From contig NZ_JAABQC010000014.1 of the NCBI RefSeq assembly GCF_011391645.1, forward strand, positions 1 to 38,451: DNA of 38,451 bases. Direction: 5' to 3'. Numbering within the stretch: the stretch's first letter is position 1; every line of letters starts with the position of its first letter. A program made the position numbers and the translations under genes. Shown here one piece after another: positions 16,601 through 26,493 of this stretch. The notes below the pieces were generated by a model. The model was not told the origin of the DNA. It did no database searches and was given only the letters and a program-made list of their open reading frames with translations. The DNA is from Rhodoferax sp. (lineage in GTDB: Bacteria; Pseudomonadota; Gammaproteobacteria; Burkholderiales; Burkholderiaceae_C).

Positions 16601-16798
16601 TCGTTTTGGAAGAATTGGTGAAGTGGCAGACATGCGCCATTCTATGAATTGATCAAATCCAGATTTTCTGACCATTTTCACGCGCCCGAGGGCGCCGAAA
16701 GACCAGTGATGTGTGGGGTGTATCCGCCGTTTGGCCGTGCCAAACAACAAGCTTGTCCCACAATCGCGCCGCGATATTGCAACGACCAGACTTTCATC

Positions 16799-17161
16799 AT
16801 GAACGCACTCAACGTGTTGGGCACGCCTCTACAACCCTGCTCATACGATCCGCTGACCGGTTTTTTTCGGGACGGCTGCTGCCACACCGACGCGCAAGAC
16901 CACGGCACCCATGTGGTGTGCGCGCGCATGACTCACGCCTTTCTTGACTATTCCCGGGATCAAGGCAACGACCTCGTCACGCCCCGGCCCGAGTACCGCT
17001 TTGCCGGCCTCAAGCCCGGTGACCGCTGGTGCCTGTGCGCGCTGCGCTGGCGCGAGGCTTTGGCCGCCAATGTGGCCCCGCCGGTTTACCTGCGAAGCAC
17101 CCACAACAAGGCGCTTGCGGTGGTCACATTGGCCCAGTTGCAAGCTCATGCGGCAGATTGA
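16799..17161 (+). CDS. DUF2237 family protein
   Basis: A 120-residue soluble protein that matches the DUF2237 family along its whole length, including NVLGTPLQPCS, TGFFRDGCC, VCARMTHAFL, GNDLVTP and GDRWCLCALRW. It has several conserved cysteines (residues 14, 27, 28, 41, 78, 80), so a metal or redox role is conceivable, but no function is established that I know of. The ATG at 16799 gives the normal family N-terminus; the frame is open upstream but without family sequence. The next gene starts nine bases after its stop and is probably co-transcribed. Confidence 0.88.
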   Translation: MNALNVLGTPLQPCSYDPLTGFFRDGCCHTDAQDHGTHVVCARMTHAFLDYSRDQGNDLVTPRPEYRFAGLKPGDRWCLCALRWREALAANVAPPVYLRSTHNKALAVVTLAQLQAHAAD

Positions 17162-17170
17162 CAAGCGACC

Positions 17171-17650
17171 ATGCCGACACTCTCATCACAACGGCCAGCG
17201 GCGGTAGCCTGGCTCGGCTACGGCGGCTTGCTGCCTTTTTTGGGCTCGGCGCTGCTGTGTTGGCTGGAACCCGATCACCGCAGCCTGTGGCTGGAGATGC
17301 TGCTCACCTATGGCGCGGTGATCCTGAGCTTTGTCGGTGCGCTGCACTGGGGCTTTGCCATGGTGCACCCTGACACGGCGGGCCAACCCATGAACGGCAT
17401 GTACGGCTGGAGCGTGATGCCCTCGCTGCTGGGCTGGGTGGCGCTGCTGGTGCATCCCGCGGCGGGCGCCACCTTGCTGATTGCCGGCTTTTTGGCGCAT
17501 TACCGACAAGATTTGCGTCTGGCCAGGGTTCTGCCCTTGCCCGCCTGGTATTTGCCACTGCGCCTGCAACTCACGGTGGTGGCCTGCCTGTGCCTGGGGT
17601 CGGTGTATTTTCTGGCACAGAGTTTGCCGCCGGCTGCCATGAACGCCTGA
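17171..17650 (+). CDS. DUF3429 family inner-membrane protein
   Basis: A 159-residue protein with about five hydrophobic helices, recognised as DUF3429 by the N-terminal WLGYGGLLPFLGSAL and by LTYGAVILSFVGALHWGFAM, YGWSVMPSLLGW and FLAHYRQD. Family function is unknown. It starts nine bases after the DUF2237 gene and ends at a clear terminator hairpin, so the two form a small operon. The internal charged loop YRQDLRLARVLPLPAWYLPLR is typical for the family. Confidence 0.85.
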   Translation: MPTLSSQRPAAVAWLGYGGLLPFLGSALLCWLEPDHRSLWLEMLLTYGAVILSFVGALHWGFAMVHPDTAGQPMNGMYGWSVMPSLLGWVALLVHPAAGATLLIAGFLAHYRQDLRLARVLPLPAWYLPLRLQLTVVACLCLGSVYFLAQSLPPAAMNA

Positions 17651-17684
17651 TCAAACGGGACAGCGCACGCCCTCGATCATGATT

Positions 17685-17718
17685 GCCAAAAAAAACGAGC
17701 CGGAGCTCGTTTTTTGGC
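17685..17718. terminator. Bidirectional Rho-independent terminator
   Basis: GCC-A8-CGAGC (17685-17700) pairs with GCTCG-T6-GGC (17705-17718), with loop CGGA and a two-base bulge in the A-run. The A/T tracts flank the GC stem on both strands. It lies between the convergent DUF3429 gene and the small exported protein gene. Confidence 0.75.
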
Positions 17719-17733
17719 GGACATCAAAAAGAA

Positions 17734-17946
17734 TTACTTCTTGACTTCTGCCTTCTTCATGTCTTCTTCCAATTTCTTGCAGTCAGCCTTCATTTTTTCG
17801 TCGGCTGTTTTAGGATCCATTTTTTTGCAAGCAGCCATCTTTTCTTCCATGGCCTTGGGGTCTGCCTTCATGGCACCGCCATGAGACATGGCAAAAGAAC
17901 CCGTGGCAAATGCAGCCAACACCAAAGCGGACAATAATTTCATCAT
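17734..17946 (-). CDS. Small exported Met/Lys-rich protein, function unknown
   Basis: Seventy residues. The N-terminus MMKLLSALVLAAFATGSFA is a signal peptide with a probable cut after about residue 19. The mature part is highly charged and helix-prone, with many Lys, Glu and Met, a start reading MSHGGAMKADP, and two cysteines (40 and 56) in repeated CKK settings. Seven Met in about 51 mature residues, plus His, suggest possible metal or oxidant handling in the periplasm; this is a guess. I chose the ATG at 17946 because GGAG lies eight bases upstream. Similar small Met/Lys-rich periplasmic proteins occur in related bacteria without known function. Confidence 0.7.
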   Translation of the reverse strand: MMKLLSALVLAAFATGSFAMSHGGAMKADPKAMEEKMAACKKMDPKTADEKMKADCKKLEEDMKKAEVKK

Positions 17947-18015
17947 AAAAAATCTCCAGGTCAATTTATAAGCGAGTGCGTCCAGAACGGGACGCGCCGG
18001 TAATATAGCGCAAAT

Positions 18016-19221
18016 ATGCAATTATTTTTGGCACCATCAAGGCGAGGGCTTAGCCGCGCAGGGTTTATTGCGTTGTGCGTCATCGGTGGTGCCACAGCCG
18101 CGCTTTGCCACGCCGCACCGCGAACACCCGGCGCAGACACCGAAGTGCTGGAGCGTTTGCCGCTGCGTCCCGGTGACGAGGCCACCCGGGCGTTTCGCAC
18201 CTTGCGCCAGGCGCTGGCCAAAACACCCACCGATGCAAGCGCGGCCAGCGCCCTGGCACAGGCCTACTTTGATCAGGCCATGGCCAAAGGCGACCCGCGC
18301 TACATTGGCTACGCCGAGGCGGTTGTGCGCCCTTTTGCCAGCACCATGACAGCGGACTTGCTGCTGGTGCGCGGCCAGTTGCGACAATACCGGCACCAGT
18401 TTGAAGAGGCCCTGGAAGACTTCTCAAGCGCCTTGCGCCTGGACCCGCAACAGGCTCAGGCCCAAGCCTGGCGCGGCGCCATCTTTCTGGTGCAGGCCAA
18501 CTACCCGGCGGCGCAGCAAGCCTGTCAGGCGCTGCGCGATCTGGCGCAGCGCGCGCTGGCTGGTGCTTGTCAGGGCCTGCTGCAGGCCTACACCGGCAAC
18601 TTGCAAGCAGCCCAAGCCACGCTGCAACTTGCCTTGCAAGCCAGCCCTGCGCCCGAGAACCAACTCTGGCTGCTCACCCGCCTGGGCGAGGTGGCCAGTT
18701 GGCGCGGCCAGGCCGCGCAGGCCGAGCAGCATTTCAAGGCCGCCCTGAAGCTGGGACTCGATGACGGCTACCTGTTGGCCGCCTGGAGCGACTTTTTGCT
18801 GGACGCGCAGCGCCCCGCCGAGGTGGTTGCGCTGCTGGCACCCTGGGAGAGTTCGGACGGTCTGCTGCTGCGCCTGGCCGAGGCAGGAACCCTGCTCAAG
18901 CTGCCGGCAGCGTCCCGGCACGTGCAAGCCCTGGCCAACCGTTTTGACGCCGCCCGCTTGCGCGGCGACGCGACCCACCGCGCCGAAGAAGCCCGCTTTG
19001 AGCTGCGCTTGCGCGGCAACCCGCAGGCCGCGCTGGTCATGGCCAAAGCCAATTACGCGGTGCAGCGCGAACCACGCGACGCCCGCATCTTGCTTGAAGC
19101 GGCGCTCGCGGCGAAAGACCCTGCCGGTGCGCAAGCGGCGCTGGACTGGCTGCGCAGCAGCGGCTTCCAGGACCCGCACATGCTGGCGTTGGCCAAAGAC
19201 CTGAATCTGAAGACACCATGA
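18016..19221 (+). CDS. Exported tetratricopeptide-repeat protein
   Basis: A 401-residue protein with an N-terminal signal peptide (hydrophobic stretch about residues 14-30, cut probably near CHAA). The rest is Ala/Leu/Gln-rich helical repeats. Clear TPR-like units include FEEALEDFSSALRLDPQ and AQAEQHFKAALKLGLDD, and the spacing suggests roughly six or more repeats. It probably works as a periplasmic scaffold. Its stop overlaps the next ATG (ATGA at 19218-19221), so it is translationally coupled to the HupE-like membrane protein, a likely partner. No strong ribosome site is visible before the ATG at 18016, so the exact start is uncertain. A pair of exported TPR and HupE/UreJ-like protein is a recurrent arrangement in proteobacteria as far as I recall. 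Confidence 0.8.
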   Translation: MQLFLAPSRRGLSRAGFIALCVIGGATAALCHAAPRTPGADTEVLERLPLRPGDEATRAFRTLRQALAKTPTDASAASALAQAYFDQAMAKGDPRYIGYAEAVVRPFASTMTADLLLVRGQLRQYRHQFEEALEDFSSALRLDPQQAQAQAWRGAIFLVQANYPAAQQACQALRDLAQRALAGACQGLLQAYTGNLQAAQATLQLALQASPAPENQLWLLTRLGEVASWRGQAAQAEQHFKAALKLGLDDGYLLAAWSDFLLDAQRPAEVVALLAPWESSDGLLLRLAEAGTLLKLPAASRHVQALANRFDAARLRGDATHRAEEARFELRLRGNPQAALVMAKANYAVQREPRDARILLEAALAAKDPAGAQAALDWLRSSGFQDPHMLALAKDLNLKTP

Positions 19222-20360
19222 ATTTCCACCCACGTTTGCAGCTGACACGCCTGCTGGCTTTGCTTTGGCTGCTTCTGGCTTTAAGTGGCCATGCGCTGGC
19301 GCACAAAGCCAGCGACAGCTACCTGGTGCTTGATGTTCAGGGCCAAAGCGTCACCGGCCAATGGGACATTGCCCTGCGCGACATCGACTTTGCCATGGGC
19401 CTGGACGGCGACGGCAATGGCGACATCACCTGGGGCGAGTTGCGCCAGCGTCAGAGCGACCTCAGCGCCTGGGCGCTGGCGCGCCTGCAGTTGCAGCGCG
19501 GCGGCAGCTGCAGCATGACGGCCGACCAGCTCCAGGTGGATGAACACACCGACGGCAGCTACGCCGTGCTGCGTTTGCGCGGCGAGTGTCCAACCGCGGA
19601 TGCCGACCTGCAACTGACCTATCGCCTGATGTTTGACGTTGACGCGCTGCATCGCGGCCTGCTGCGGCTCAAGCTTGACGGGCAAACCCAAACCGCCGTG
19701 CTGGCCCCCGAGACTGCCGAGCAAACCTTCAAAGCCAGCGGTGGTTCGCGTCTGGCGCAGTTTGGCCAGTATCTGGTTGAGGGTGTCTGGCACATCTGGA
19801 TCGGCTTTGACCACATCTTGTTCCTGCTCTCTTTGCTGCTGCCTGCGGTGCTGATTTTTCATCACCGGAGCTGGCGCGCCGTCACCAGCTTTGGCCAGGC
19901 CTTGCGTGAAGTGCTGTGGGTGGTGACCGCCTTCACCGTGGCCCACTCCATCACCCTGACGCTGGCCGCCCTGCAGTGGGTGGAGTTGCCCTCCAGGGTG
20001 GTGGAATCAACGATTGCATTGTCGGTGGTACTGGCGGCAGCCAACAACCTCAAGCCGGTGGTGGCGCAGCGGCGCTGGATGATGGCCTTTGGCTTTGGTC
20101 TGATTCACGGTTTTGGCTTTGCCAGCGTGCTGGCAGATCTGGGCTTGCCCCAGGGCGCGATGGTGCTCTCGCTACTGGGCTTCAACCTCGGTGTGGAACT
20201 GGGCCAACTGGCCATCGTGGCCGTTTTCTTGCCGCTGGCCTACTGGCTCAGGCACACCGCCTTTTACCGCCAGGGGGTGTTCGTTGGCGGCTCGGTGTTG
20301 ACTCTGGGCTTGGCCGCGTTCTGGTTTGTTGAACGTGCCTTCAATCTCAAATTGCTATGA
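19218..20360 (+). CDS. HupE/UreJ-like membrane protein with an exported EF-hand domain
   Basis: A 380-residue protein with signal peptide (1-28), an exported domain of about 150 residues, then about seven membrane helices. The membrane part starts with VWHIWIGFDHILFLLSLLL and holds AFTVAHSITLTLAAL and FGLIHGFGFASVLADLGLP, typical of the HupE/UreJ family (associated with nickel or cobalt in better-known members). Residues 63-74 (DGDGNGDITWGE) fit a canonical 12-residue EF-hand loop with Asp63, Asp65, Asn67, Asp69 and Glu74, so calcium binding is likely. It overlaps the TPR gene and the photolyase-family gene by 4 bases each. The transported substrate is not evident. Confidence 0.83.
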   Translation: MNFHPRLQLTRLLALLWLLLALSGHALAHKASDSYLVLDVQGQSVTGQWDIALRDIDFAMGLDGDGNGDITWGELRQRQSDLSAWALARLQLQRGGSCSMTADQLQVDEHTDGSYAVLRLRGECPTADADLQLTYRLMFDVDALHRGLLRLKLDGQTQTAVLAPETAEQTFKASGGSRLAQFGQYLVEGVWHIWIGFDHILFLLSLLLPAVLIFHHRSWRAVTSFGQALREVLWVVTAFTVAHSITLTLAALQWVELPSRVVESTIALSVVLAAANNLKPVVAQRRWMMAFGFGLIHGFGFASVLADLGLPQGAMVLSLLGFNLGVELGQLAIVAVFLPLAYWLRHTAFYRQGVFVGGSVLTLGLAAFWFVERAFNLKLL

Positions 20361-21937
20361 CCTGCAGCGTGGTCTGGTTCAAGCGCGATTTGCGATTGCA
20401 TGACCATGCGCCACTGGTTGAAGCCGCCACGCACGGCCCGGTGGTGTGCCTGTACGTCATTGAACCCAGTCTGTGGGCGCAACCGGATGCGGCGCGCCAG
20501 CATTTTGAGTTCATTCTGGAGAGCCTGCGCGAACTGGCCCGCGCGCTGAAAACTCTGGGTGGACGCCTGCATGTGCGCACCGGGGAAGTGCCTGAGGTGT
20601 TGGCGCAGCTGCATGCGCTGGCCCCGTTTGAGCGACTGGTCTCGCATGAAGAGACTGGCAACGCGGTGAGCTTTGAGCGGGACAAGGCGGTGGCGCGCTG
20701 GTGCCGGGCGCAAGGCGTGGCGTGGCAGGAATTTCCCCAATTTGGCGTCGTGCGCCGCCTGAAAAGCCGCAACCTCTGGCAAGGCCATTGGGCAGCCCAC
20801 ACCCACGCACCCCAACTGCCCTGCCCCACGCCCAACGAATTGCAGTTTCAACCGAGCCCCTGGCCTGCGCAGCAAGTGCCCGGCGCGCTTGATCTGGGTC
20901 TGAACGCGTTTGACCCTCCGGCTCGCCAGCGTGGCGGGCGCACCAACGGTGTGGCGGTGCTGGATGATTTCTTGAACCACCGCGTCCGCAACTACCGCGG
21001 CGGCATCTCGTCTCCGCTGTCGGCCCCCAGCGCCTGCTCGCGCCTGTCGCCCTACCTGACGTTTGGCTGTGTGAGCCTGCGTGAGGTGGTGCAGGCCACC
21101 GACGCGAAATTGCTGCAACTTAAAGCTCAGTCCGCACACGCATCAAAGGGGCTGGAGGCTTTTTTAAGCCGATTGCACTGGCATTGCCACTTTATCCAGA
21201 AGCTGGAGTCCGAGCCCGAACTGGAGTGGCGCAATGTGCACCGGGGTTACGACGGCCTGCGTGAACCCGACTGGAACGCGGCGCACTTTGAAGCGCTGCA
21301 AGCCGGGCGCACCGGCTGGCCGATGGTCGATGCCTGCGTGGCCATGCTTCGCGAGACTGGCTGGCTCAACTTTCGCATGCGCGCCATGCTGGTGTCGGTG
21401 GCAGCCTACCCGCTCTGGCTGCATTGGCAGCCAGTGGGGCAGTGGCTGGCGCGCCAGTTTCTGGACTACGAGCCCGGCATCCACTGGAGCCAGCTGCAAA
21501 TGCAGAGCGGCACCACCGGCATCAACACCACGCGGGTTTACAACCCGGTCAAGCAAGCGCAAGACCACGACCCCAACGGTGTGTTTGTGCGCCGCTGGTG
21601 CCCGGCCCTGCGCCACGTGCCCGACAGCTGGTTATTGGAGCCCTGGCGCATGCCCGAGAGTGTGCAGGCGGCCTGTGGCGTACGCGTGTCTGCCGATGCG
21701 CCAGCCGGTGCGGTGGATGCCTGGCCGCTGCCGCTGGTCGACCTCGAATCTGCCACCCGCGCCGCCAAAGACCGTCTGCACAGCCTGCGCCGAACCCCCG
21801 AGGTGCGCGCGGGCAAAGCCGCCATTGTTGAGAAACATGCCTCACGCAAAGTTCAGGCTGGGCGGTCGAGGACAACCCGACAAAGCCGTCAGGCCAGCAG
21901 CGCCGCCGGCGCGCAGCTGAGCCTGGGCTTTGACTGA
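20357..21937 (+). CDS. Photolyase/cryptochrome-family protein with unusual active-site residues
   Basis: A 526-residue flavoprotein with the photolyase N-terminal Rossmann domain (VVWFKRDLRLHDH at 5-17) and the C-terminal FAD domain (SRLSPYLTFGCVSLRE, GRTGWPMVDACVAMLRETGW). By hand alignment to E. coli CPD photolyase, the flavin-N5 Asn378 position is His376, the flavin-proximal Trp382 position is Leu380, and the substrate-contacting Glu274 position is Arg272 (Trp275 is kept). A basic tail of about 80 residues follows and ends QLSLGFD, resembling a sliding-clamp-binding hexapeptide. It may be a non-canonical photolyase or a cryptochrome-like photoreceptor. Its start overlaps the HupE-like gene by ATGA. 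Confidence 0.85.
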   Translation: MTCSVVWFKRDLRLHDHAPLVEAATHGPVVCLYVIEPSLWAQPDAARQHFEFILESLRELARALKTLGGRLHVRTGEVPEVLAQLHALAPFERLVSHEETGNAVSFERDKAVARWCRAQGVAWQEFPQFGVVRRLKSRNLWQGHWAAHTHAPQLPCPTPNELQFQPSPWPAQQVPGALDLGLNAFDPPARQRGGRTNGVAVLDDFLNHRVRNYRGGISSPLSAPSACSRLSPYLTFGCVSLREVVQATDAKLLQLKAQSAHASKGLEAFLSRLHWHCHFIQKLESEPELEWRNVHRGYDGLREPDWNAAHFEALQAGRTGWPMVDACVAMLRETGWLNFRMRAMLVSVAAYPLWLHWQPVGQWLARQFLDYEPGIHWSQLQMQSGTTGINTTRVYNPVKQAQDHDPNGVFVRRWCPALRHVPDSWLLEPWRMPESVQAACGVRVSADAPAGAVDAWPLPLVDLESATRAAKDRLHSLRRTPEVRAGKAAIVEKHASRKVQAGRSRTTRQSRQASSAAGAQLSLGFD

Positions 21938-21988
21938 ACCCTCTGACCGTTGGTCCACCTTGCTACTTCACTGTCAAACAAACCACTC

Positions 21989-22144
21989 ATGAAAATGCGC
22001 AAGAAATCCGAGTTGCCCAGCAAAATTTGCCTCACCTGCGGCCTGCCTTTTGCCTGGCGCAAGAAATGGGAACGCGACTGGGACAATGTCAAATACTGCT
22101 CTGAGCGTTGCCGCCGCAGCGGCCAAGCCACCCCGCAAGGCTGA
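21989..22144 (+). CDS. DUF2256 mini-protein (zinc-ribbon-like)
   Basis: Fifty-one residues, almost entirely the DUF2256 domain: [20 protein letters not shown] and then YCSERCRR. Four cysteines (14, 17, 37, 41) make a CxxC...CxxxC arrangement that probably binds zinc. The surface is basic, so nucleic-acid contact is plausible. DUF2256 is often next to or fused with photolyase/cryptochrome genes, and here it lies between two of them, two bases before the DASH cryptochrome start. The frame extends upstream to a GTG at 21950, but the ATG at 21989 gives the family N-terminus. Its function is unknown. Confidence 0.85.
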
Positions 22145-22145
22145 C

Positions 22146-23459
22146 ATGAACACCCTGATGTACTGGTTCAGAAACGACCTTCGCCTGCACGACAACCCGG
22201 CCTTCAGCCAAGCCGCCGCGCAGTGCAGCACGCTACTGCCGGTGTACTGCCTGGACAGCGCCAGCGCCGCCCACAACGGCGAGCAGCGTTGGGGCGTGAT
22301 GCAGCCCAGCCTGCACCGTCAGAGGGTTCTGTATGACAGCCTGATCGACCTGGACACCCAGTTGCGCGCCATGGGCAGCGCGCTGACCGTGGTGAATGGC
22401 CCACCGGCCGAGATATTGCACAAACTGGCGCGGGCAGTGAACGCCACTGCCATCCACTGCGAGACCATTGCCGCCACCCATGAACAAAGCGAGCTGGACA
22501 AGCTGCAACACACCGGTGTTGAGGTGGTCAGCAGCTGGCAGTCCACCTTGTTTGACCCTGAGGCCCTGCCCTTCAAGGTGCAAGACTTGCCAGCGGTCTA
22601 CACCCAGTTTCGCCGCGCGCTGAGCCGCGGCGATGTCACCCCTGTCCCCCCGATGCAGGCCCCCGCGCAATTGCCGCCCTTGCCCAAGACCGCTCACGGC
22701 TACCCCACGGTGTACCTGGTCAACCAGCTCGCCATGCTGGGCGACGGCAGCCCCGAGCCGCGTTCCAGTCTGCCCTATTTGCAGGCAGAATTTGCCGGGG
22801 GTGAGCGCGCGGGATTGGCCCATCTGGCGCGTTACTTTGCCAGCGAGCTGCCACGCCAGTACAAAGCCACGCGCAACCGGCTCACCGGCACCGATTTCTC
22901 CAGCAAATTGTCGGGATGGCTGGCCTCGGGCGCGCTGTCGGTGCGCCAGGTGGCGCAGGCGATGGCCACCTACGAGCAGCGGCAGGGTCCGAATGAAGGC
23001 ACCGAGTGGCTGCTGCTGGAGCTCTTGTGGCGCGACTACTTTCGCCTGCTGCACCTGCAATACGGCGCCAAGCTGTTCAGGTACCGCGGCCTGCGCGACA
23101 AGGTGCCGCCGGTGCACCACGACCCGGCCCAGTTCACCCGCTGGTGTTTGGGCCGAACCGGTGAGCCGCTGGTCGACGCGGCCATGCACGAGCTGCTGGC
23201 CACCGGTTACCTGTCCAACCGGCTGCGCCAGGTGGTGGCCAGCTACCTGATTCATGAGCTCAGCGGCGACTGGCGCGCCGGGGCCGCCTGGTTTGAAGCC
23301 CAGCTGATTGACTACGACGTTTACAACAACCAGGGCAACTGGCTCTACATTGCCGGCATGGGCACCGACCCACGCGGCGGGCGGCGCTTCAACGTGCAAA
23401 AACAGGCCCTGGACCACGACCCCGATCAAAGCTACCAGCGCTTGTGGCAAACCGTGTAG
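22146..23459 (+). CDS. DASH-type cryptochrome
   Basis: DASH cryptochromes bind FAD and an antenna folate and repair CPD lesions mainly in single-stranded DNA. This one has 437 residues from the ATG at 22146 (MNTLMYWFRNDLRLHDN). DASH hallmarks include the linker LPAVYTQFRR, the WLLLELLWRDYFRLLHLQYG helix (Glu and Trp-Arg kept), TGEPLVDAAMHELLATGYLSNRLRQ and the C-terminal YDVYNNQGNW then GTDPRGGRRFN. Asn and Trp four residues apart in NNQGNW match the N5 Asn and flavin-proximal Trp, so the catalytic core looks intact. It begins one base after the DUF2256 stop. The longer open frame starting at 22050 runs inside DUF2256 and is not used. Confidence 0.92.
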   Translation: MNTLMYWFRNDLRLHDNPAFSQAAAQCSTLLPVYCLDSASAAHNGEQRWGVMQPSLHRQRVLYDSLIDLDTQLRAMGSALTVVNGPPAEILHKLARAVNATAIHCETIAATHEQSELDKLQHTGVEVVSSWQSTLFDPEALPFKVQDLPAVYTQFRRALSRGDVTPVPPMQAPAQLPPLPKTAHGYPTVYLVNQLAMLGDGSPEPRSSLPYLQAEFAGGERAGLAHLARYFASELPRQYKATRNRLTGTDFSSKLSGWLASGALSVRQVAQAMATYEQRQGPNEGTEWLLLELLWRDYFRLLHLQYGAKLFRYRGLRDKVPPVHHDPAQFTRWCLGRTGEPLVDAAMHELLATGYLSNRLRQVVASYLIHELSGDWRAGAAWFEAQLIDYDVYNNQGNWLYIAGMGTDPRGGRRFNVQKQALDHDPDQSYQRLWQTV

Positions 23460-23477
23460 CCCTGCGCCCCCATCACC

Positions 23478-25052
23478 ATGACCAACCCAATGAACAGCAT
23501 CACATCTCCGGCCCACACCCTGCGCCTGATTCTGGGCGACCAGCTCAACCCGCGGCACAGCTGGTTTGCCACGGTGCGGCCCGAAGTAATTTATGTGCTG
23601 ATGGAAATCCGCCAGGAAACGGACTACGTGCTGCACCACGCGCAAAAAATCATCGCCATCTTTGCCGGCATGCGCGAGCTGGCGCGCCAACTGCAGAGCG
23701 CTGGCCACCGGGTGCATTACCTGACGATTGACGATCCGGCCAACCAGCAGAGCCTGACCGGCAACCTGAGCGCGTTGATCAGCCTTTACCAGGCGAACGC
23801 CTTTGAGTACCAGGACCCCGACGAGTACCGGCTGGACCAACAGTTGCAAGCCTTTTGTGCTTCCAGCCCATGTTTCAAAATCGTAAGCAGCTCTCAAGTT
23901 AATAGCGAGCACTTCTACACCCAGCGCGATGAAGTGGCCGAAATGTTTGTCAACCGCAAACAGTGGCTGATGGAAACCTTTTACCGCCACATGCGCAAAC
24001 GCCACCGCGTGCTGATCGACGGGGCCGACAAACCTGCGGGCGGTCAGTGGAACTTTGACGCGGACAACCGCAAGCCCTGGAAAGGCACGCCGCCCGAGCC
24101 GCCCGATTTGCGCCCACGCCACGACCACCGCGCGCTGTGGGCCAGCATTCAGGCTGCAGGGGTGAAAAGTTTTGGCGAACCCCATGCGGAAGACTTTCGT
24201 TGGCCGCTTGACCGCGATGAGGCGCTGCAGCAGCTGGACCATTTCATCACCCAAGCGCTGCCATATTTTGGTGACTACGAAGACGCCATGAGCCGCAAGG
24301 CGCAGCGGCTGTTTCACTCGCTGCTGTCGTTTGCCCTCAATGTGAAGATGCTCAAGCCCGACGAGGTGGTGCAGCGGGTCGAAGCGGCCTGCCGCGCAGG
24401 CCAGGTCGAGTTGGCCGCTGCCGAGGGGTTTATCCGCCAGGTCGTTGGCTGGCGCGAATACGTGCGCGGCATTTACTGGGCGCAAATGCCGGGCTACGAC
24501 CAGCACAACTTCTTTGAACACAGCACACCACTGCCCGAATGGTTCTGGACTGGCCACACGCGCATGAGCTGCCTGTCCGCCAGCATCAATGCCTCGCTGC
24601 AAAACGCCCACGCGCACCACATCCAGCGGCTGATGGTAATCGGCAACTTTGCCCTATTGGCTGGCCTCGATGTGCAGGCGCTGCACCGCTGGTATTTGGG
24701 CGTGTACATCGACGCGTTTGAATGGGTGGAGCTGCCCAACACGCTGGGCATGAGCCAGTTTGCCGACGGCGGCCTGCTGGCCACCAAGCCGTATGTGAGC
24801 AGCGCCGCCTACATCGACCGTATGAGCGACTACTGCAAAGGCTGCGCCTATGACAAAAAGCAGCGCCTGGGTGAAGCCGCCTGCCCGTTCAACGCGCTGT
24901 ACTGGGACTTTTACCAACGCAACGCCAACAAGCTCGAGCGCAACCCGCGCATTGGCATGGCCTACCGCCAGTTGGCCAAGATGCCCGCCGACGAGGTGGC
25001 CGCGCTGCAAGCCCAGGCCACCCAAATCCGCCAGCGTCTTGACACGCTCTGA
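23478..25052 (+). CDS. Iron-sulfur bacterial cryptochrome/(6-4) photolyase (FeS-BCP)
   Basis: Resembles Agrobacterium PhrB, which repairs (6-4) photoproducts and carries FAD, a lumazine and a 4Fe-4S cluster. Length is 524 residues. Cys365, Cys453, Cys456 and Cys469 match the four cluster ligands, with the same spacing in the last three (C-x2-C-x12-C). Other family blocks are LILGDQLNP, FYRHMRKRHRVLIDG, GGQWNFDADNRKPW, GFIRQVVGWREYVRGIYW and HHIQRLMVIGNFALLAGLD. The start could be the ATG at 23478 or 23490. A lower-GC stretch at about 23855-23915 encodes a variable loop. It follows the DASH gene by 18 bases, so co-transcription is likely. Confidence 0.93.
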   Translation: MTNPMNSITSPAHTLRLILGDQLNPRHSWFATVRPEVIYVLMEIRQETDYVLHHAQKIIAIFAGMRELARQLQSAGHRVHYLTIDDPANQQSLTGNLSALISLYQANAFEYQDPDEYRLDQQLQAFCASSPCFKIVSSSQVNSEHFYTQRDEVAEMFVNRKQWLMETFYRHMRKRHRVLIDGADKPAGGQWNFDADNRKPWKGTPPEPPDLRPRHDHRALWASIQAAGVKSFGEPHAEDFRWPLDRDEALQQLDHFITQALPYFGDYEDAMSRKAQRLFHSLLSFALNVKMLKPDEVVQRVEAACRAGQVELAAAEGFIRQVVGWREYVRGIYWAQMPGYDQHNFFEHSTPLPEWFWTGHTRMSCLSASINASLQNAHAHHIQRLMVIGNFALLAGLDVQALHRWYLGVYIDAFEWVELPNTLGMSQFADGGLLATKPYVSSAAYIDRMSDYCKGCAYDKKQRLGEAACPFNALYWDFYQRNANKLERNPRIGMAYRQLAKMPADEVAALQAQATQIRQRLDTL

Positions 25053-25121
25053 GCGCCGTTTGCAGTCCAACACTCGCCCAGACGCCAACACCCAAGCTGA
25101 TCAACCCCTGACAAATTCACC

Positions 25122-25817
25122 ATGAACACATTCCCCGACGGTTTTCGCGCGCTGGTCATCGGCGCATCGGGCGGCATTGGCCGCGCCATGGTGCAAATCC
25201 TGCAAGCCAACCCGCATTGCGCCGAGGTGATCGGGCTGCACCGCCAGTCTGACCCGCGCGTGGACTTTGACGATGAGGCCAGCATTGGCGCGGCGGCCGC
25301 ACAATTGCGCGCCACAGGCAAATTTCACCTGATCATCAATGCCGTGGGCGTTCTGCACGCAGCGGACTTCATGCCAGAGAAAAAGCTTGGCGACCTGAAC
25401 TACGCCCAGTTGGAGGTCACCTTTCGCGTCAACACCTTTGGCCCTGGCCTGGTGTTGCGCCACTTCGCCCCGCTGCTGGATGCAAAACGCAGCGTGCTGG
25501 CGGTGATTTCGGCCAAGGTGGGCAGCATCGAAGACAACCGCCTGGGCGGCTGGTACAGCTACCGAGCCTCGAAAGCGGCACTCAATATGCTGCTCAAAAC
25601 TGCCGCCATTGAGGTCAGGCGCAGCAACCCGCAGGCGGTGCTGGTCAGTCTGCACCCCGGCACGGTCGACACCGGTTTGTCCAAACCCTTCAAGGGAGAA
25701 CAAATTGGCCGTCCAGCCCTGGAGGCTGCCAGCGACATGCTGATGGTGCTCAGCGCCCTGACCCCAGCCGATACTGGCACATTTGTGAGCTACGCCGGCG
25801 AGCGGCTCCCTTGGTGA
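25122..25817 (+). CDS. Short-chain dehydrogenase/reductase (C-factor-like)
   Basis: An NAD(P)-dependent oxidoreductase of 231 residues. The cofactor loop GASGGIG is at 14-20, NAVG at 73-76, catalytic Ser130 in VISAKVGS, and Tyr147 and Lys151 in YRASK. The segment NRLGGWYSYRASKAALNML resembles C-factor/CsgA-type SDRs. The substrate is unknown. It starts 69 bases after the iron-sulfur photolyase and is the last plus-strand gene of the photolyase run; SDRs of this type often sit in such clusters, which suggests a shared regulon. It ends 16 bases from the convergent lolA with no clear terminator. Confidence 0.85.
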   Translation: MNTFPDGFRALVIGASGGIGRAMVQILQANPHCAEVIGLHRQSDPRVDFDDEASIGAAAAQLRATGKFHLIINAVGVLHAADFMPEKKLGDLNYAQLEVTFRVNTFGPGLVLRHFAPLLDAKRSVLAVISAKVGSIEDNRLGGWYSYRASKAALNMLLKTAAIEVRRSNPQAVLVSLHPGTVDTGLSKPFKGEQIGRPALEAASDMLMVLSALTPADTGTFVSYAGERLPW

Positions 25818-25833
25818 GGGCCGTGAAAATGGC

Positions 25834-26493
25834 TTACTGCCTGATCACATCCGCACCCGTTGGAATCTGGAAATTGAAGCTGCTCACCGGCAAGGCGGGG
25901 TTGACCTTGAAGCCGGCAAAGGACAACACCGAGCGTTGGCCAAAGCTGTCCAGAATTTCCAGCACCGCCAGGGTGCTGGTGGCGTTGGCGGCGTCCCCCG
26001 CCGCCTTGAAGCCGACCCGAACCGACTGCAACTGACCGTCATTTGATTTGGGTTTGGCCATCACCCACTGCAAGCCGTCCTTGTCGGGCGCATCGGACAG
26101 CACAAAATCTTCCTGCAAGGCCCGAACGTCGGCCGCCGAGGCGATCAGCGCCGCAGGCGTGGTGCCCAGCACCGCCGCCTGCTTGCGGGCAGTCACCTGG
26201 TTCAGGTCCACGTCGTGCAACCACAGCGTCTGGCCGTCCGCCACGATGGTTTGCACGAAGGGCTTGGCGTAGTCGAAACGAAACCGGTTTGGCCGGGAAA
26301 ATTCAAACTTGCCGGTGGAGGTCTTGACCCGTGGCGCCTGTCCTTCCCGGGCCGGCGAGGTTACCACCTGGGTGAAATCAGCCTGGCCGGTTTTAACTGT
26401 TTTGACAAAAGTCTCCAGACTCTGCAGGCCACCAGCATTTGCTGAAATGGCGCAGGAGGCTGTTAAAAATAGCGTGATCAAACAACGTTTCAC
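25834..26493 (-). CDS. lolA: Outer-membrane lipoprotein carrier protein LolA
   Basis: Periplasmic chaperone that carries lipoproteins from LolCDE to LolB at the outer membrane. It has 219 residues with a signal peptide (1-20, cut after ISANA). LolA-typical sequence includes ADFTQVVTSP, STGKFEFSRPNRFRFDYAKPF, QTIVADGQTLWLHDVDLNQV and the Arg/aromatic-rich strands. I chose the GTG at 26493 because AAGGA lies about five bases upstream and the signal peptide starts there; the frame is open for 41 more codons upstream into ftsK's tail, which is not coding. It follows ftsK by 82 bases, the usual order. Confidence 0.9.
   Translation of the reverse strand: MKRCLITLFLTASCAISANAGGLQSLETFVKTVKTGQADFTQVVTSPAREGQAPRVKTSTGKFEFSRPNRFRFDYAKPFVQTIVADGQTLWLHDVDLNQVTARKQAAVLGTTPAALIASAADVRALQEDFVLSDAPDKDGLQWVMAKPKSNDGQLQSVRVGFKAAGDAANATSTLAVLEILDSFGQRSVLSFAGFKVNPALPVSSFNFQIPTGADVIRQ

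Follow-up and report, generated by a model that had tools for sequence, protein, structure and literature searches.

A gene run on one contig of a Rhodoferax sp. genome (NZ_JAABQC010000014.1) places three photolyase-family flavoproteins around a 51-residue protein of the family DUF2256, and the question it raises is what this small protein does among them. The window is the whole stretch of DNA analysed (38,451 nt, positions 1 to 38,451 of the contig), and the run occupies 18016-25817 on its + strand. The DUF2256 gene (21989-22144, +; PF10013, 82 bits against a gathering cut-off of 25) encodes a basic protein with four cysteines. It was named without interpretation in an earlier note on this DNA and is the most informative member of the run. 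The gene at 23478-25052 (+) encodes a DPRP, or iron-sulfur (6-4)-type photolyase, called FeS-BCP below (PF04244, 252 bits, cut-off 22), and the name PHR is used for the unusual photolyase-like protein of the run. On balance, we lean towards reading the run as a light-dependent DNA-repair and photoprotection set with three cryptochrome/photolyase flavoproteins, in which DUF2256 would be a zinc-finger-like accessory of FeS-BCP.

The distribution of the two families was compared in 200 genomes of Pseudomonadota, including that of the Rhodoferax strain. DUF2256 was found in 36 genomes, PF04244 in 38 and PF03441 in 88 (86 above the cut-off). DUF2256 and PF04244 occurred together in 31 genomes, DUF2256 alone in five, PF04244 alone in seven and neither in 157 (Fisher test, 1.7e-24, with genomes treated as independent, an assumption that holds only in part; phi 0.80). 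For DUF2256 and PF03441 photolyases, phi was just 0.46. A second sample of 142 Alphaproteobacteria from 140 genera, which has at least five genomes in common with the first, gave 31, 3, 5 and 103 genomes in the same order (Fisher test, 1.1e-22, again with incompletely independent genomes treated as independent; phi 0.85). Over the two samples, PF04244 was present in 57 of the 65 genomes with DUF2256. The genes were within 4 kb of each other in 29 of these, and in the other 28 they were more than 4 kb apart or on different contigs; the link is therefore more than an operon effect. Among 14 named control genomes, DUF2256 was found in Caulobacter and Synechococcus elongatus, and PF04244 in these two and in Haloferax.

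PHR was also considered as the main partner of DUF2256. Of the 200 genomes, 14 contain PHR relatives, counted at E up to 1e-60, and both PF04244 and DUF2256 are present in 12 of these. Once the 14 genomes were excluded, the counts (both, DUF2256 only, PF04244 only, neither) were 19, 5, 7 and 155 (5e-16). Loci with PHR relatives were then represented by the best 80 of 573 confirmed, i.e. the best matches to PHR and not a random draw. Twenty-four of the 80, all from named isolates, were picked by hand; in ten of them DUF2256 adjoins PHR, and in 14 it does not. DUF2256 and PF04244 were present in all 24 genomes. When DUF2256 was beside PHR, FeS-BCP was within 1.5 kb in eight of the ten. Of the 14 genomes where it was not, 13 have DUF2256 and FeS-BCP as direct neighbours in the same orientation; in the remaining one (G490), DUF2256 lies on the opposite strand, with 4.6 kb between it and FeS-BCP and about 3 kb between it and PHR. 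PHR was rejected as the main partner on the strength of these 13 genomes and of the two PHR genomes without PF04244 in the 200-genome sample, which also lack DUF2256.

Co-occurrence of this kind could reflect a shared light-exposed lifestyle or one common regulon, with no direct partnership. Genes that would suit a light-response set (lipocalin, BLUF, FolE, TIGR03643 and MerR) do stand beside some relatives, and orphan DUF2256 genes occur. Such an explanation is nevertheless decidedly unlikely: DUF2256 is associated more tightly with FeS-BCP than with photolyases generally, the association persists without gene linkage, and DUF2256 keeps mostly to FeS-BCP, not to PHR.

The pairing was also found on plasmids. 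DUF2256 was present in 126 plasmid records and FeS-BCP in 86; among the 60 records listed for each, 33 were common to both, several of the plasmids being near-copies. The two genes were within 2 kb of each other in 26 of these 33 records, and on one strand in 21 of the 26. Taken over shared genomes, neighbourhoods and plasmids, a functional link between DUF2256 and FeS-BCP in Pseudomonadota is well supported. In p1AsACE, just 3 nt separate FeS-BCP from DUF2256; the pair adjoins TIGR03643, and genes for a lipocalin, a desaturase and an FAD-oxidoreductase are close by. The small protein TIGR03643/DUF2805, weakly similar to sigma-70 region 4, was seen beside or near FeS-BCP and DUF2256 in loci L225 and L066, and it may belong to this gene set too. 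The order in the Cupriavidus plasmid NZ_CP017753.1 (L228) is DUF2256, FeS-BCP and excinuclease Cho. The Cho gene overlaps the end of the FeS-BCP gene there, so that a single run combines photoreactivation with excision repair.

Judged from its sequence, the protein encoded at 23478-25052 is a member of the FeS-BCP/prokaryotic (6-4) photolyase family. It keeps C365, C453, C456 and C469 together with the HHIQRL motif, and its nearest solved chain was 7ykn (also 8a1h), with an E value of 2e-146. Repair of (6-4) photoproducts would be its predicted activity. Compared with known FeS-BCP systems (PhrB, CryB, 7ykn), the window protein is itself no different, and the new element is the proposed DUF2256 partner. 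To our knowledge, no solved FeS-BCP chain includes a protein partner.

The cluster cysteines were then surveyed in 69 chosen PF04244 proteins (that of the window, 16 from the 80 PHR loci, 12 from DUF2256 loci and 40 from further stretches). All four were present in 63 proteins, two proteins were incomplete and four had lost all of them. The four cysteine-less proteins (L196-L199; genomes G225, G293, G287 and G207) belong to genomes that keep DUF2256, and 12 full-length FeS-BCPs from genomes without DUF2256 retained all four cysteines. Both observations bear on the idea that DUF2256 is a maturation factor building or protecting the Fe-S cluster of FeS-BCP, an idea suggested by the co-occurrence of a cysteine-rich protein with a cluster protein. 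Since cysteine-less relatives occur in genomes with DUF2256 and complete ones in genomes without it, a pure maturation role was made unlikely, and we hold it to be very improbable, even with one of the four genes (that of G225) possibly decaying. DUF2256 seems to be tied to the FeS-BCP protein and not to its cluster, and to be helpful rather than essential. The four cysteine-less proteins come from small alphaproteobacterial genomes (1.2-2.5 Mb), and the G225 gene contains internal stops.

The features of DUF2256 itself suggest a small, basic, zinc-finger-like protein. Its isoelectric point is 9.8-11.5 (17 sequences), and K6, L9, P10, C14, C17, W23, R24, W27, W31, C37, C41 and R42 are invariant in 34 sequences. 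DUF2256 is listed in the Pfam TRASH clan in the part of the source available (PMC4047054), and the CxxC...CxxxC cysteine pattern of that clan is present as C14, C17, C37 and C41. The structural model contains a hairpin and a helix (39-45) by C37-C41, with pLDDT 86-90 for residues 11-40 and pTM 0.51, and fits a treble-clef-like fold. The best Foldseek matches were weak, to an FCS zinc finger (E 0.08, probability 0.93) and to YacG on gyrase (E 0.11, probability 0.72), and the best E value in a sequence search of the PDB was 0.55. DUF2256 thus resembles the TRASH-clan zinc fingers (FCS finger, YacG) in clan membership, modelled fold and weak fold matches, and differs from them in its WRKKW...W motif and its link to FeS-BCP; the title of 4tma has YacG acting on gyrase. 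An open-access literature search found no paper tying DUF2256 to photolyases; most subscription papers lay outside its scope, so this is no proof of novelty. The accessible portions of texts mentioning DUF2256 contain no photolyase link, and the text of a paper on the S. elongatus (6-4) photolyase (NAR 2022) contains none of six terms for the gene neighbourhood. A 2025 survey counts DUF2256 as one of the domains that are frequent in small bacterial proteins, in the excerpt available (PMC11796252). The string PF10013 also occurs in papers that are, by their titles, about Plasmodium or other Apicomplexa (six papers) or an oomycete (one), probably as part of a gene name, and a Xanthomonas phenotype-prediction paper holds PF10013 and UCP037205.

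In the accessory role proposed here, DUF2256 would bind zinc through C14, C17, C37 and C41. Its basic face and the invariant W23, W27 and W31 would bind FeS-BCP and/or DNA, and the protein may in this way help FeS-BCP to reach lesions or DNA-bound or signalling targets. Repair is favoured because of the excinuclease Cho neighbour and the (6-4) kinship of FeS-BCP. The same protein could instead serve as a signalling or regulatory output of FeS-BCP of the CryB type, a zinc finger through which a promoter or a regulator would receive the light or redox state. In the available part of its description, Rhodobacter CryB alters gene expression although binding to photosynthesis promoters was not detected, and the authors consider an interaction with other regulatory proteins conceivable (PMC3320616). 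Signalling keeps a place in the argument because the action of CryB on gene expression is left unexplained in that text, and the predicted basic, zinc-finger-like character of DUF2256 would suit it. The Cho gene that follows DUF2256 and FeS-BCP in one plasmid and the closeness of the window FeS-BCP to a solved (6-4) photolyase point to repair, and a purely signalling output is unlikely. If the accessory reading is true, DUF2256 could hold a binding function that is missing from FeS-BCP, and this would be the first function for the DUF2256 family.

Several observations weigh against DUF2256 as an accessory of FeS-BCP. Eight of the 65 DUF2256 genomes have no PF04244. Conversely, PF04244 occurs without DUF2256 in 12 genomes, which are spread across the tree (12 changes against a mean of 12.1 in shuffles), so the enzyme can manage in its absence. 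A photolyase-family gene was found within about 3 kb of DUF2256 at 18 of 35 loci in the 200-genome sample and was absent at the other 17, and in two of the ten picked genomes with DUF2256 beside PHR, FeS-BCP is on another contig. On plasmids, 27 of the 60 DUF2256 records listed are not among the 60 of 86 FeS-BCP records listed, 51 of the 126 DUF2256 records are from Pantoea, and four orphan DUF2256 genes on Pantoea, Erwinia, Spirosoma and Salipiger plasmids (L223, L224, L226 and L227) have no photolyase within 6-7 kb by tblastn. No DUF2256-photolyase fusion was present in the 182 loci checked, and no Foldseek match of DUF2256 had an E value below 0.001. Zinc binding is deduced from the cysteines, and DNA binding is likewise a prediction. 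Beyond Pseudomonadota, the data cover some of the 14 named controls and a small number of plasmids.

The second unusual protein of the run is PHR (20357-21937, +), which contains PF00875 and PF03441 and scored below every NCBIfam cut-off listed. Its scores, in bits against the cut-off, were 145/317 for DASH, 142/604 for plant CRY, 145/885 for 8-HDF, 137/506 for the E. coli type and 50/550 for class II. Matches to solved chains of many classes were weak (79-139 bits, 44 sequences), and Foldseek gave TM values of 0.67-0.76 by query length at 21-26% identity (50 chains listed). The fold is thus common to PHR, NewPHL, class III and other photolyases. The closest named homologs were from Rhodoferax. 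Seventeen full-length members were aligned (that of the window and 16 others, 35-68% identical to it), the eighteenth row being a fragment, and R272, W275, H276, H278, W357, E372, H376 and M382 were invariant in all 17. These 17 proteins formed a clade with 100/100 support and a long stem, measured against only 14 DASH and three class I-like rows.

At the positions aligned to 272 and 376, the DASH and class I-like proteins carry Glu and Asn, respectively, and the second PF03441 protein of the Rhodoferax genome has the same class I-like pair. The active-site Glu and the flavin Asn of a class I cyclobutane pyrimidine dimer (CPD) photolyase, which are Glu274 and Asn378 in E. coli, align with R272 and H376 of PHR. 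This placement was consistent across three alignments, with the genome's own class I-like protein and 2e0i on the class I-like side. The alignments disagree over the Trp residues next to the flavin and the lesion (presumably Trp382 and Trp384 in E. coli): two put L380 and M382 there and one puts W377. The PHR model has a mean pLDDT of 73.8, and residues 369-392, at less than 50, are too weakly modelled to place the residue facing flavin N5. In the part available of a published account, the flavin Asn is replaced solely by Asp, water or Cys (PMC12083526). A His at this place would be new, the model being too weak there for its placement. NewPHL keeps the flavin Asn according to the same excerpt (PMC12083526), against the aligned His of PHR, a comparison drawn with the published description of NewPHL. 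By these alignments, PHR is a distinct subfamily, with no NCBIfam model above its cut-off and with aligned Glu to Arg and flavin Asn to His changes. It is probably a flavoprotein in its own right, its active site altered, rather than a CPD photolyase of the classical kind. Its chemistry cannot be read off the photolyase classes compared.

A bolder combination of the two proposals is possible but doubtful. DUF2256 would then be the missing subunit of FeS-BCP, a zinc-finger go-between that binds DNA or a partner in both (6-4) repair and CryB-type signalling, and PHR would found a new subfamily in which a His and not an Asn faces the flavin and an Arg and not a Glu lines the pocket.

The third flavoprotein, encoded at 22146-23459 (+), is a DASH-type cryptochrome/photolyase (TIGR02765, 463 bits, cut-off 317), with 6kii and 1np7 as its best solved relatives. 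Domain and family profiles upheld the claim that three distinct cryptochrome/photolyase subfamilies lie in a single strand-aligned run. The run begins with a TPR-repeat protein (18016-19221, +; PF14559/PF13414) and a HupE/UreJ-like membrane protein (HupE_UreJ_2; 19218-20360, +; PF13795, 174 bits) and ends with a short-chain dehydrogenase/reductase (SDR; 25122-25817, +; PF00106; PRK09009, 196 bits, below its cut-off of 330). All the genes named in the earlier note were confirmed on the + strand, and the TPR/HupE and HupE/PHR junctions are the exact 4-base overlaps it described (19218-19221 and 20357-20360). The gaps that follow, taken from the sequence, are 51 nt between PHR and DUF2256, 1 nt between DUF2256 and DASH, 18 nt between DASH and FeS-BCP and 69 nt between FeS-BCP and SDR.

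Conservation around PHR was counted in the 80 loci by tblastn with the window proteins and neighbour representatives, within about 6.5 kb of PHR; many of the contigs end early, so the counts are lower bounds. DUF2256 was downstream of PHR in 27 loci and upstream in eight, DASH was near PHR in 38, FeS-BCP in 29, and SDR was downstream in four. Among the 46 loci with at least 6 kb downstream and at least 4 kb upstream, 19 had DUF2256, 24 DASH, 19 FeS-BCP, two SDR, 11 MerR and none HupE. Among the 55 with at least 5 kb downstream, PHR, DUF2256, DASH and FeS-BCP were found together in nine, DASH alone in 16 and none of the four neighbours in 11. The photolyase part is thus a recurring modular set. 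As for the conserved synteny that had been suggested, parts of PHR/DUF2256/DASH/FeS-BCP do recur in other genomes; the complete order through to SDR is rare (one of the 55), and TPR and HupE are never there.

Neither HupE nor TPR adjoined PHR in any of the 80 loci. Of 150 genomes from the family, 69 carry HupE, and TPR adjoined it in 27 of the 29 loci of the best relatives, the remaining two loci being shorter; no photolyase lay within about 1.5 kb of the pair in any of the 29. Because PHR loci lack HupE and TPR and the pair recurs without photolyase, TPR-HupE is a separate pair that abuts the photolyase set in this genome. Its two genes are probably accidental neighbours outside the recurring module. 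The periplasmic or membrane arm that had been proposed for a light-responsive system has in its favour the 4-base overlaps seen in this genome; with these counts against it, it fails and is extremely improbable. In one of the pair loci (L150; the set is L150-L178), a relative of the small open reading frame at 17734-17949 accompanies the pair.

A light link of the gene set is plausible. In the 80 loci, PHR was adjoined by lipocalin in seven, BLUF in two and FolE in two, and a MerR gene was upstream in 16. The neighbours confirmed by Pfam include MerR with a B12-binding domain, lipocalin, BLUF, GTP cyclohydrolase I, pterin-4a-carbinolamine dehydratase and DUF2805. In a tblastn recount, four of the 80 loci had a MerR protein of the B12-binding LitR kind and 13 one of another group, whose representative has no B12 domain by Pfam; the recount totals 17 and not 16 because no overlap filter was used in it. 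The earlier suggestion of a light-responsive system therefore stands as plausible through these neighbours, with the LitR type in only 4/80. That of a light-responsive regulator beside relatives holds for the same four, where it is upstream, and not for the run itself: none of the ten genes scanned at 16649-25817 is of the LitR/CarH type, and a search of the strain's genome with one LitR-type protein brought up nothing convincing (22% identity and E 3e-4 at best). Three BLUF genes are present in this genome, which is 2.74 Mb and 93% complete; its further PF03441 protein is on another contig.

Known light-induced systems offer partial parallels. In the available part of its description, the light-induced genes of Pseudomonas LitR/PplR include phrB, UfaM, folE and cryB, an SDR lies in the pmlR1 region, and cryB is thought to be co-transcribed with PME7070 (PMC9758184). 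The present set is alike in that light induction or a place in a LitR-type region is described there for a photolyase, an SDR, cryB and pterin genes (PMC9758184), and in the LitR-type MerR upstream of PHR in the four relatives. It is unlike the Pseudomonas regions in the absence of an adjoining LitR-type gene, and the same excerpt names neither DUF2256 nor a PHR-like subfamily (PMC9758184). An operon of Synechococcus PCC 7335, called the first UV-B-inducible two-photolyase operon in the portion available, which names two earlier photolyase operons, likewise has photolyase-family genes in one overlapping run (PMC9649867). It combines, by that account, a bifunctional-type enzyme (sister to class II) with a PHR (PMC9649867), whereas the Rhodoferax run, known from its genes alone, holds other subfamilies and DUF2256.

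Upstream of the run lie a DUF2237 gene (16799-17161, +; PF09996) and a DUF3429 gene (17171-17650, +; PF11911). Both are occasional PHR neighbours, DUF2237 near PHR in 14 of the 80 loci and DUF3429 upstream in six. Ahead of the run, at 17685-17718 (no strand), is a terminator-like perfect inverted repeat with A/T runs (two perfect inverted-repeat pairs), which a terminator scan of 17600-26000 did not list. Sigma-70-like promoters in a scan of the same interval numbered 0 against 1.0 expected in shuffles, which is weak evidence in either direction, and Rfam and tRNA searches of the window gave no matches. A convergent open reading frame 3' of the run looks LolA-like, a name given by eye from the reading frame alone. 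A 188-residue family, whose representative has no Pfam match, is upstream of PHR in 15 of the 80 loci; in L045 (8414-10004), its gene is directly 5' of PHR and 3' of a MerR gene. Finally, BLUF, GTP cyclohydrolase I and pterin dehydratase genes are clustered near the photolyase module in L025 (16539-19320), L033 and L061, where they perhaps supply a pterin antenna.

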